A stretch of 64,000 bases of DNA, taken from the NCBI RefSeq assembly GCF_001040845.1, contig NZ_CP011941.1, forward strand, positions 2,424,890 through 2,488,889, in the 5' to 3' direction. The DNA is from Synechococcus sp. WH 8020 (lineage in GTDB: Bacteria > Cyanobacteriota > Cyanobacteriia > PCC-6307 > Cyanobiaceae). The translations under genes and the position numbers were made by a program. Numbering within the stretch: the first letter of the stretch is position 1; each line of letters starts with the position of its first letter. The notes below the pieces were generated by a model. That model worked only from the letters and a program-made list of their open reading frames with translations. It was not told the DNA's origin and did no database searches. Positions 53,518-56,794 of the stretch are shown piece by piece.

Positions 53518-54213
53518 TCAGAACCCTCTTGCTCTTGGCCGCTGACTCGACAGCGAAATATTTTGGTTCTGCTCAGGGGGCTTCGGATGTCCGGATGTGG
53601 GTTGTGCAACAACGTTGAAGGCAAGAGACCAGCGTTCTCCGCTGCCCCGGAAAGGCATCACGGAATGGGGTTGCCAAGCTGGAAAAATATAAAAATCGCC
53701 TGGGCTAGGAAGCACGTATTGAGCCATTCCCGTACGAAATGATTGGAGGTGGTATTCCTCAGGACCATGAAAACAAAGTTGACCGTCAAAGCTTGTTCCG
53801 TTGATTTGTGAGGGCACTTTTAAAAAGACAACTCCCGAAAAACTTCCTCCATGGGTATGCATTGGGTTGTAATCGCCCTCCATTTGGCAATTCAGCCAGA
53901 TGTCAATCAGTCTTAGCTGGTAGCGCCCTGGCACCCATGGGCCACGACCTTGAGGTGGTTGCTGGTCCATCACGTGACGGATCCAGCGTTCGCAGCCTTC
54001 GAGAAGGACAGATTCACAAAGTTCTTGAACAGCCGGTTGGATTGGATTGAGTTCTCGTTGTTGGTTGAGCTGGCCAGCGAGGCGCATCGAAGCGTCGGGA
54101 TTAGCTCCTGGATTGCTGAGGACGTCCTCACAATGGAGAAGGCATTGGTTGAGAAGTTTTAAATCGAGTTTCCCTTGTACGATTGAGCGTGGAAACAAAT
54201 CAAGAACGTTCAT
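53518..54213 (-). CDS. 2OG-Fe(II) oxygenase-like protein (TIGR02466 type)
   Basis: 231 residues from ATG at 54213 (MNVLDLFPRSIVQGKL); 54252 adds thirteen. The double-stranded beta-helix shows NPMHTHGGSFSGVVFLKVP (H119, H121), GDFYIFPAWQPHSVMPF (H183) and GERWSLAFNV (R194, the usual 2-oxoglutarate contact). The common HxD ligand pair is HxH here, as in related phage-type proteins. The family is frequent in cyanophage genomes and in some marine bacteria; substrates are unknown. It may have arrived by transfer. A+T content is raised in its surroundings. Confidence 0.75.
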   Translation of the reverse strand: MNVLDLFPRSIVQGKLDLKLLNQCLLHCEDVLSNPGANPDASMRLAGQLNQQRELNPIQPAVQELCESVLLEGCERWIRHVMDQQPPQGRGPWVPGRYQLRLIDIWLNCQMEGDYNPMHTHGGSFSGVVFLKVPSQINGTSFDGQLCFHGPEEYHLQSFRTGMAQYVLPSPGDFYIFPAWQPHSVMPFRGSGERWSLAFNVVAQPTSGHPKPPEQNQNISLSSQRPRARGF

Positions 54214-54275
54214 GTTGAGATGACTGATGTTTTCAAAGAATTTCGATAACAAATACCGAGATCAATAGAACCACA

Positions 54276-54419
54276 ATGCCCTGCGCCAAAGGCATGCAAT
54301 TGAAGGCTCTAAAAAAGAAGGGATTCCCTGAGATGACCGGTGGTGTGATGGAAGTTCGTTCTGTCACTGATGTTCAGGTTGTTGCCAAGCTGGTCATTTT
54401 GCACAAAAAGATCATCTAG
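54276..54419 (+). CDS. Possible 47-residue basic protein
   Basis: ATG at 54276, TAG at 54417-54419. It reads MPCAKGMQLKALKKKGFPEM, then GGVMEVRSVTDVQVVAKLVI and ends HKKII. The amphipathic pattern and beta-like second half look protein-like, and a similar small protein may exist in other picocyanobacteria, but I cannot confirm it. There is no recognisable ribosome site. It diverges from the oxygenase gene. Confidence 0.4.
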   Translation: MPCAKGMQLKALKKKGFPEMTGGVMEVRSVTDVQVVAKLVILHKKII

Positions 54420-54534
54420 ATCTGCATCCACGATGACCTTTTGTTGAAGGTGTCCCTAGGGTTGGAGGCAAGGAGAGATTGTTTGCCCCTGCTGGCAGCG
54501 AATCCTCGTTAGTGAAATCCATTCTTGTTCCTTC

Positions 54535-54566
54535 AAAATAAAAGCCCAGGCATTGCCTGAGCTTTT
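54535..54566 (-). terminator. Rho-independent terminator of the BTRD1/beta-lactamase gene
   Basis: On the minus strand AAAAGCTCAGGC, loop AAT, GCCTGGGCTTTT, then ATTTTG. The stem is complete in minus-strand RNA with one G-U pair, but would have a C-A mismatch on the plus strand, so its direction matches the gene ending at 54593. Confidence 0.88.
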
Positions 54567-54592
54567 AGAGTTTTTATTCGTTAGTAAGTGAT

Positions 54593-56440
54593 TTAAAACA
54601 GATTAATGCTAGGCCAGTTAGGTGTTGAGTTAATGATGTCTTTCATTAGGCTATCAAGAGCTGCAGGTTTTTTGCGGCTATTGGTTACTGCGACATAACC
54701 GAAATTTGAGTTGTAATTCTTCCTGTACACTGCAGTAGTGCCGTCCATCAAGCCATTATGGTAATTCGCGTGGTCATTGTTGTGCCTCATAAAACGAAGT
54801 AGATCAATGGGTGTGGCTATCCAACCACCATGAGAATCAAACCGTTGAGGCTTGACGCTTGAATAAGCACCTCCTCCATAGTATGTAGCTTCATTGCGCA
54901 GTTGTTGGTTCTTTTTGTCGCTCCCGATCACCATGCCTTTGGCACCTGCAGGATTCAGGATTTTGTTTTTCACGTAAGAATCGTAGTCTGCATTGGTTGC
55001 TTTCTCAATCACTCGCCCCAGTAAAGAGTAGCCAAAATTAGAATACCGATAATCTTGTCCGGGGTTTGAGGCCAAAGGGTAATTGCTTAATGTCCAGTTG
55101 ATTAAGCCGGGGAACGTAGACCCAGAGTAAGCAAACATTGGATCTTTTTTGTCTCCTTTTTTGTTGATGTTTGCCCACCCTCCGCGATGGTCAAGTAGAT
55201 GCTGGATTGTGATTTTGTCGATGTTTGGGTTGGTTGAAGGTGTTGGGTAGTTATCTCCAAGAATGCTGTTTTTGCCAAACACTTTAGAACTTGAGTTTAG
55301 AGATGTTTCTTTCAAGAGTTTCTTGATTGCGGCTTGGGTTACAAGCTTTGAAACGCTGGCAACGCGAAAGCGATGCTTTGGTCCCACTACAATTCCCTTT
55401 GCGACGTCAGCTTTGCCGAAACCGCGGGCATACACAAGTTTGTTGTTTTTGCTAATGGCTATCGATAATCCTTTGATGCCCTTATCACGCATGTATTGAC
55501 CAACCTTTCTTTCTATTGATCGTAGGCCTTTGCTTGCAAATTTCTTGTTTTCCCAGACTCCATTGAACTTGACACCACTCGCTGAGTTAAAGGCTTCGAT
55601 GTATTTTGGCTCATAGCTCTGATATCGATAGTTGTCGAAGATATGCTGGTAGTTTTTGGTTGGAATCCCATGGCGTGCTTGATAAGATTGCCCTCCTTCT
55701 TTGGTCCAAACAGCAGCATAGCGATCGCTGTTTCCTTTGCGATAGCCGGTGACTGCTTTCAGGCGATAGCCTTCTTTGGCTGACTTGTTAAATTCTTTTT
55801 GATATTGAGAGCTTGTGAGTCCGTGCCGAGCTTTCCATTTGGGCATGTTTTTTTCGAAGATGACAGCAAATCTAGGAGAGCCTTTCAAGCTAAATGCACT
55901 GACATGTTTTACTCCGTATCCTTCTCCAGACATGGAAGTGACTTGACTTTGGTATTGCTTTTCCGTAAGACCGTGCCGCGCTTTGTACGCAGGACCAGAG
56001 GTTTTTTCCCAAATCGCTGCATAGAATGGTTTGCCTCCAATTTCATATCCATTGATGTGCGTCAAGCGATACCCTTTTTTATTGAAAGCGTCAAATGCAG
56101 CTTGATACTTTTGTGGGCTCAATCCGTGGCGAGCAATAAATGGTTTGCACCCATTTTTGCTCCAAATTGCAGCATAGTTGGCTCTCCCTGCTTGTTGGTA
56201 GCCTGAAATCGACTTGAGGCAATAACCTTTCTTGGTGTAGTTGTTGAAAGTCTGCTGATAACCAGCGCTTGACAGGCCATGCCGCGCAGTCCACTCGCTG
56301 GCGGAGGATGGCAACGCTGTGGTCAGGGCCATTCCTGTGGCCGCAATTGCGCCAATGGTCGTGGCTTTTTTGATGCCGTCTTTCGCCCTTTGGTTGATTT
56401 TTAGAACGATTTTGTTGAGGTCAAGAACTGTAGAAATCAT
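54593..56440 (-). CDS. Exported protein: five BTRD1-type repeats plus serine beta-lactamase-fold domain
   Basis: 615 residues. The N-terminus (1-48) ends in a hydrophobic stretch and SSASEW, a likely export signal. Residues 50-300 hold five tandem repeats of 49-51 residues, each starting (W/F/Y)xARHGL at 50, 101, 152, 202 and 253, and ending with a (A/G)(A/V)(I/V)(W/F)xK strand; this matches bacterial tandem repeat domain 1 by memory. Residues 305-605 form a class C beta-lactamase/DD-peptidase-like domain with SVSK (S362, K365), YSN (Y466-N468) and HGG (538-540). Function could be peptidase, esterase or protease. The gene is strongly A+T-rich compared with neighbours and lies next to tRNA-Ala, suggesting acquisition. 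Confidence 0.88.
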   Translation of the reverse strand: MISTVLDLNKIVLKINQRAKDGIKKATTIGAIAATGMALTTALPSSASEWTARHGLSSAGYQQTFNNYTKKGYCLKSISGYQQAGRANYAAIWSKNGCKPFIARHGLSPQKYQAAFDAFNKKGYRLTHINGYEIGGKPFYAAIWEKTSGPAYKARHGLTEKQYQSQVTSMSGEGYGVKHVSAFSLKGSPRFAVIFEKNMPKWKARHGLTSSQYQKEFNKSAKEGYRLKAVTGYRKGNSDRYAAVWTKEGGQSYQARHGIPTKNYQHIFDNYRYQSYEPKYIEAFNSASGVKFNGVWENKKFASKGLRSIERKVGQYMRDKGIKGLSIAISKNNKLVYARGFGKADVAKGIVVGPKHRFRVASVSKLVTQAAIKKLLKETSLNSSSKVFGKNSILGDNYPTPSTNPNIDKITIQHLLDHRGGWANINKKGDKKDPMFAYSGSTFPGLINWTLSNYPLASNPGQDYRYSNFGYSLLGRVIEKATNADYDSYVKNKILNPAGAKGMVIGSDKKNQQLRNEATYYGGGAYSSVKPQRFDSHGGWIATPIDLLRFMRHNNDHANYHNGLMDGTTAVYRKNYNSNFGYVAVTNSRKKPAALDSLMKDIINSTPNWPSINLF

Positions 56441-56535
56441 TGTTATTTGATGTGAGTGAGTTCAGGGTCATCTCCCTGGCATTCACACCATCGCCCTTCT
56501 GACGGCTGAGCTCGTTGATTGGGGACAAGGCTGCC

Positions 56536-56551
56536 TGTGATTTTCGTCACT
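56536..56551. promoter_or_regulatory. CRP-like palindrome upstream of the BTRD1/beta-lactamase gene
   Basis: TGTGA-TTTTCG-TCACT matches the cAMP-receptor-protein consensus TGTGAN6TCACA at nine of ten positions and lies 96-111 bases upstream of the ATG. Thirty bases further upstream (56566-56586) is a second inverted repeat, CTTCAAT-AATGCGC-ATTGAAG. The rest of the 281-base gap to tRNA-Ala shows nothing else recognisable. Confidence 0.45.
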
Positions 56552-56721
56552 ACAGACAAAAGAAGCTTCAATAATGCGCATTGAAGACAGGCTCGAGATC
56601 TTTTATTGCCTTGATTTTTTGTGCATGGGTTGATCTGGGTTCAGGGTTGCATCTTGCCCAATCCACTTCCTCGGTAATAGTTAGACGCCTAGATACCGAA
56701 TAAGTTTTTGCTATTAATACA

Positions 56722-56794
56722 TGGAGACTAGGGGATTCGAACCCCTGACCTCTGCGGTGCGATCGCAGCGCTCTACCAGCTGAGCTAAGACCCC
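56722..56794 (-). tRNA. tRNA-Ala (anticodon CGC)
   Basis: 73 bases. Anticodon stem CTGCG/CGCAG with loop ATCGCAC gives anticodon CGC. D arm GCTC..GAGC and T arm AGGGG/CCCCT with TTCGAAT are perfect. The acceptor stem GGGGTCT/AGTCTCC has a G-U pair and one U-U mismatch at the fifth position. CCA is not encoded. It borders the A+T-rich accessory stretch. Confidence 0.93.

Follow-up and report, generated by a model that had tools for sequence, protein, structure and literature searches.

The open reading frame that a sequence-only reading had placed at 54593-56440 is borne out as a real and intact gene of the window, i.e. the whole 64-kb stretch of Synechococcus DNA that was analysed. The gene and the features in and around it are collected in Table 1. 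It is present in 2/31 genomes of the genus, this one and a sister genome (G001), at the same site, and the two proteins are 90% identical. Export and the cleavage site of the 615-residue protein were judged by eye, and the N-terminal region supports the export proposed earlier. Residues 1-47 have a pLDDT under 50 in the AlphaFold model and are fast-evolving (dN/dS 0.39).

Table 1. Features of the hydrolase gene and its surroundings, with positions in the window.
Feature	Position	Strand	Basis or remark
2OG-Fe(II) oxygenase gene	53518..54252	-	Other side of the insert; itself accessory, with a relative in 17/31 genomes
Accessory segment	54500..56713		Only in this genome and G001
Intrinsic terminator	54539..54567	-	13-pair stem followed by a U-rich tract, z = -3.3; paired change in the sister genome
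Exported BTRD1x5 + S12 (PF00144) hydrolase gene (predicted export)	54593..56440	-	ORF of 615 aa, ATG start, Pfam
S12 / class C-like serine hydrolase domain, residues 303-615	54596..55534	-	Pfam, structure matches
Motif 3, H561-N-G563	54752..54760	-	H561 and G563 invariant (seven full-length proteins aligned)
H537-G-G539, conserved S12 element preceding a helix	54824..54832	-	Homologue alignments
Motif 2, Y466-S-N468	55037..55045	-	Y466 invariant across homologues
Motif 1, S362-V-S-K365 (nucleophile)	55346..55357	-	S362 and K365 invariant across homologues
Five BTRD1 repeats, residues 50-298	55547..56293	-	Pfam; in the model each is strand-helix-strand-strand
Putative export signal region, residues 1-47	56300..56440	-	Long basic n-region, hydrophobic stretch, ALPSSAS
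CRP-like palindrome TGTGA-N6-TCACT, putative	56536..56551		96 bases upstream of the start codon
tRNA-Ala(CGC)	56722..56794	-	Homology of empty-site relatives resumes at its 3' end

Profile searches placed both parts of the protein above the curated Pfam cutoffs, and the repeat pattern was not lost. BTRD1 (PF17660) scores 281 bits against a cutoff of 23, in five stretches, and PF00144 (Beta-lactamase) 149.6 bits against 27, as one domain. Residues 50, 101, 152, 202 and 253 mark the approximate starts of the repeats, which are spaced 50-51 residues apart. They are not near-identical as had been stated, since pairwise identity among the five is 22-48%. The AlphaFold model contains five strand-helix-strand-strand units, like the five EHEE repeats of about 44-50 residues that form a barrel in 7tpu, the structure of the fungal polyglycine hydrolase Fvan-cmp (PMC9912923).

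The S-x-x-K and Y-x-N motifs that had been proposed for the hydrolase are found as SVSK (362-365) and YSN (466-468). The third catalytic motif had been misassigned: residues 537-539 (HGG) are a different element conserved in S12 hydrolases, and the homologue alignment gives H561-N-G563 in their place. SVSK 362, YSN 466 and HNG 561 together make up the SxxK, YxN and K/H-x-G set of S12 hydrolases. The middle residue of motif 3 varies: this protein has HNG and its sister HYG, and the wider homologue set shows HNG, HGG, HTG or HDG. All catalytic residues are retained in both genomes carrying the gene. Within the hydrolase domain, 39 homologue positions have no counterpart in this protein. The bulk of them form a single run of ~36 residues ahead of motif 3 (VDGLNPKPDILGASAIATMYQGSSVNSGYAKGWAV), which in the homologues comprises one helix and a YAKGW segment. 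Among the full-length homologues aligned, this run is absent only in this protein and its sister. The apparent trimming of the catalytic domain is thus specific to the lineage of the sister pair, and it could impair catalysis.

For structure modelling, one row of the alignment, from a plasmid record, was left out. The five repeat units have pLDDT values of mostly 88-97. In the hydrolase domain most values are 58-93, the lowest (58-80) being near the lid and motif 3. Of the solved chains that came up with phmmer, Foldseek and VIA, 7tpu alone matched both domains. Foldseek gave an E value of 1.7e-25 over 636 columns, and VIA a Z of 28.3 over 524 residues with an rmsd of 20 A. This large two-domain rmsd means that the relative orientation of the domains either differs from that in 7tpu or is mispredicted. 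The hydrolase domain alone matches AmpC, FmtA-like protein and LACTB with Z about 26 and rmsd of 2.6-3.2 A, and further structural matches are R61 and D-peptidases. The predicted model of this domain shows a class C/DD-peptidase fold. A full-length cyanobacterial homologue from genome G630, modelled with the same sequences, reached Z of 32-35, a gap that fits the missing stretch before motif 3.

Measured against the window, the gene has an unusual composition, as had been noted. Its G+C content is 44.8% (GC3 45.9%), compared with 56.4% for the window and a median of 57.6% for the ORFs, and it is the lowest among the 51 long ORFs. The A+T-rich stretch pointed out at bases 55261-55320 (20 G+C of 60) is real but not special, with 235 such 60-mers in the window, 20 of them in the gene. 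The gene does have its own terminator just downstream. One pair of the stem is altered on both sides in the sister genome in a compensatory way, such that pairing is kept; this terminator is absent from the output of a simple terminator scan. The CRP-like site, by contrast with its earlier mention as a feature of the gene, is at chance level: it has 9 of 10 consensus letters (one mismatch), and one such site was found in the 64 kb where 2.1 are expected. The sister genome has the same half-sites and differs at two spacer bases, which speaks weakly for the site. A sigma-70 promoter scan likewise gave matches no more often than chance. A leader block of 36 bases (56461-56496), partly able to pair, is identical in both gene-carrying genomes; it has no match in Rfam, and the leader is absent from the other genomes of the genus. 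Rfam detected the tRNA only, the remaining matches being far below gathering scores.

The DNA of five close relatives is homologous to the window up to about 54229 and again from 56700-56721, at the 3' end of tRNA-Ala(CGC). The left flank (54230-54498) is common to genome G015 (70%), so the gene-specific part spans about 54500-56713. A 47-residue ORF at 54276 on the plus strand was rejected as a gene, being unconserved in the sister genome or G015 despite similar DNA. In 23 genomes we read the interval that separates tRNA-Ala(CGC) from a conserved 66-residue gene. It holds only a short spacer in 13/23 and the oxygenase alone in 5/23. The oxygenase is accompanied by the hydrolase gene in this genome and in its sister, whose oxygenase is broken. 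In G015 it is joined by ~5.6 kb of different DNA that contains several ORFs. The interval is ~8.8 kb long in G009 and G029. The oxygenase of G001 is truncated by an internal deletion, the adjoining hydrolase being intact (L018:9656-10373). The ORFs of G015 include phosphorylase-like, isocitrate-lyase-like and ZIP-like ones, named by eye (hotspot loci L094, L124, L125). This interval is an insertion hotspot, a reading in line with the acquired genes inside genomic islands of marine Synechococcus (PMC2441476), and tRNA-Ala(CGC) is hereby documented as a recurring insertion site occupied by different genes in related genomes. The hydrolase gene is the sole long ORF of the insert, which carries no integrase, and a search allowing up to 3 mismatches gave a single copy of the tRNA 3' end in the window. 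The insert therefore does not have the integrase and tRNA-end direct repeats that mark an integrative element. In the literature on tycheposons, nothing was found for this tRNA-Ala(CGC) site.

The distribution of the gene is patchy. BTRD1 was found in 3/300 genomes of the family, the third protein being about 25% identical, and in 9/386 genomes of a phylum draw, this genome counted. PF00144 occurs only once in this genome, in the gene described here. A scan of genome contigs returned no relatives with a single protein as query and nine with an alignment. Full-length relatives are present in Nostoc-type cyanobacteria, Citreicoccus, Chryseobacterium and an uncultured Verrucomicrobia isolate, and all complete proteins read have five repeats. 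One cyanobacterial protein (G336; L072, L095) has the reversed order, with the hydrolase followed by five BTRD1-like repeats. A mobilizable plasmid of Acaryochloris encodes a stand-alone five-repeat BTRD1 protein (L112:3842-4768), with a tyrosine recombinase gene close by. In the ORF lists around the full-length homologues, no obvious common partner was seen. Scanned viral contigs contained no relative and phage records gave weak matches to the hydrolase part alone, so there is no sign of a phage origin. In the tree, with its long branches and open deep forks, the pair could not be placed among the other bacterial groups and no donor can be named. A comparison across the genus, suggested beforehand as a way to refute a transfer, showed that the gene is neither universal nor of normal composition, its sister copy being likewise A+T-rich (43.6% G+C). 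Foreign composition and patchy presence are thus supported, and the gene was probably acquired horizontally. A gain on the branch leading to the two genomes is the simplest reading; repeated loss may instead have occurred.

Between the two genomes the gene is under purifying selection, with a dN/dS of 0.14 for the whole gene. The value for the hydrolase (0.20) is higher than that for the repeats (0.06), by a margin that exceeds zero in 99.85% of bootstrap replicates. Many differences lie beside the active-site motifs: at D463-Y464-R465 before Y466, at 558-562 around H561, and in a further group at 417-423. They include G420A, W422L, D463K, Y464K, R465Q and N562Y. These differences may reflect changed specificity or relaxed constraint, two explanations that two sequences do not discriminate.

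The reading that we favour, with middling confidence, is that of a single-gene cargo acquired horizontally at the tRNA-Ala(CGC) hotspot and encoding an exported peptidase whose BTRD1 ring docks the target. As its signal region suggests, the protein would be exported. The five repeats seen in the model would close into a rigid ring or barrel by analogy with 7tpu. This ring would most likely be a docking module that presents a protein or a peptide of the cell wall to the S12 hydrolase at the C terminus. From the conserved motifs and what is known of the family, Lys365 and Tyr466 would activate Ser362, which would cleave an amide bond by way of an acyl-enzyme. The likely use would be the periplasmic or extracellular hydrolysis of peptide bonds in a specific target. 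That the ring is the most constrained part and the rim of the active site is variable between the sisters would agree with a binding mode that stays the same while the catalytic preference changes. An improbable, more far-reaching idea is that the conserved ring fixes the target and the trimmed, rim-variable active site shifts specificity, making this a target-specific secreted peptidase in interactions between picocyanobacteria and other organisms.

Two serious rivals have to be weighed. The hydrolase could be decaying or inactive, a pseudoenzyme with selection acting mainly on a working BTRD1 ring used for binding or adhesion. This is possible, if rather doubtful. The ~36-residue loss confined to the sister pair, a hydrolase dN/dS three times that of the repeats, the clustering of differences beside the motifs and the existence of exported stand-alone five-repeat proteins all point in this direction. 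However, the catalytic residues are all kept in both genomes, the dN/dS of the hydrolase still indicates clear purifying selection, and the match to the AmpC fold persists despite the trimming. The second rival, which we regard as unlikely, is a peptidoglycan enzyme, i.e. an S12 DD-carboxypeptidase/endopeptidase or D-aminopeptidase acting on the cell's own walls or those of neighbours. The third motif of R61-type DD-peptidases is HxG, as here, and a weak AmpH-like score agrees with such a role, as do the structures matched (FmtA-like protein, R61 and D-peptidases). That score is 68 bits, far below the AmpH cutoff of 266, and presence in 2/31 genomes means that the protein is dispensable for wall growth. 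Moreover, fungal relatives of this architecture cleave the linker of a chitinase (PMC9912923). A role as a beta-lactamase, defending the cell against beta-lactams, is very unlikely: in spite of the PF00144 domain and AmpC-like fold, the protein has HNG instead of KTG and scores 43.6 bits against a cutoff of 415 with the curated bla_class_C model, and fungal homologues showed no nitrocefin activity when assayed (PMC9912923).

The protein is a new member of an architecture already known, though thinly studied, and is unusual in the trimmed stretch next to the active site. The novelty suggested by the sequence-only reading is thereby weakened, because the combination of BTRD1 and PF00144 is already found in fungal polyglycine hydrolases (7tpu) and in other bacteria. 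Fvan-cmp (PDB 7tpu), Bz-cmp and Es-cmp share with the Synechococcus protein an N-terminal domain of five EHEE repeats and, after it, a class C-like serine hydrolase, as well as similar length, apparent export, and the SxxK and tyrosine motifs. The 7tpu protein, with its class C-like C-domain, has no beta-lactamase activity (PMC9912923). Structural identity to these fungal enzymes is ~18%, and the bacterial protein differs from them in its predicted domain orientation, the missing segment before motif 3, its bacterial origin and having no known polyglycine target. Fvan-cmp is without the glycine of the third motif; since HNG is present here, the protein is classed in the wider architecture of five BTRD1 repeats with a class C-like C-domain and not as a polyglycine hydrolase. 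A search for GGN runs in its own genome gave one match, which is uninformative on Gly-Gly cleavage.

The Nostoc-type BTRD1x5-S12 proteins (Amazonocrinis, Nostoc FACHB-152, G348, G374, G630) are about 40% identical and agree with it in the order of domains, the five repeats, the motifs and a WPSxxLF at the C terminus. They retain the segment before motif 3 and share no visible common gene neighbourhood, and those with an N-terminal extension have a twin-arginine-like signal, unlike the Synechococcus protein. The HxG S12 hydrolases (R61 DD-peptidase, alkaline D-peptidase, FmtA-like protein) are alike in fold, SxxK and YxN, but are without the BTRD1 ring and only 16-25% identical. Conversely, the stand-alone BTRD1x5 proteins of alphaproteobacterial MAGs, Acaryochloris plasmid pMB04 and G598 have the ARHGL-type signature, five repeats and an apparent export signal without a hydrolase domain. 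This matters since the BTRD1 ring, reported in all kingdoms, is without a known role (PMC9912923). Stand-alone rings, rings with a full hydrolase and rings with a trimmed hydrolase are natural forms that allow the ring to be tested as a substrate dock.
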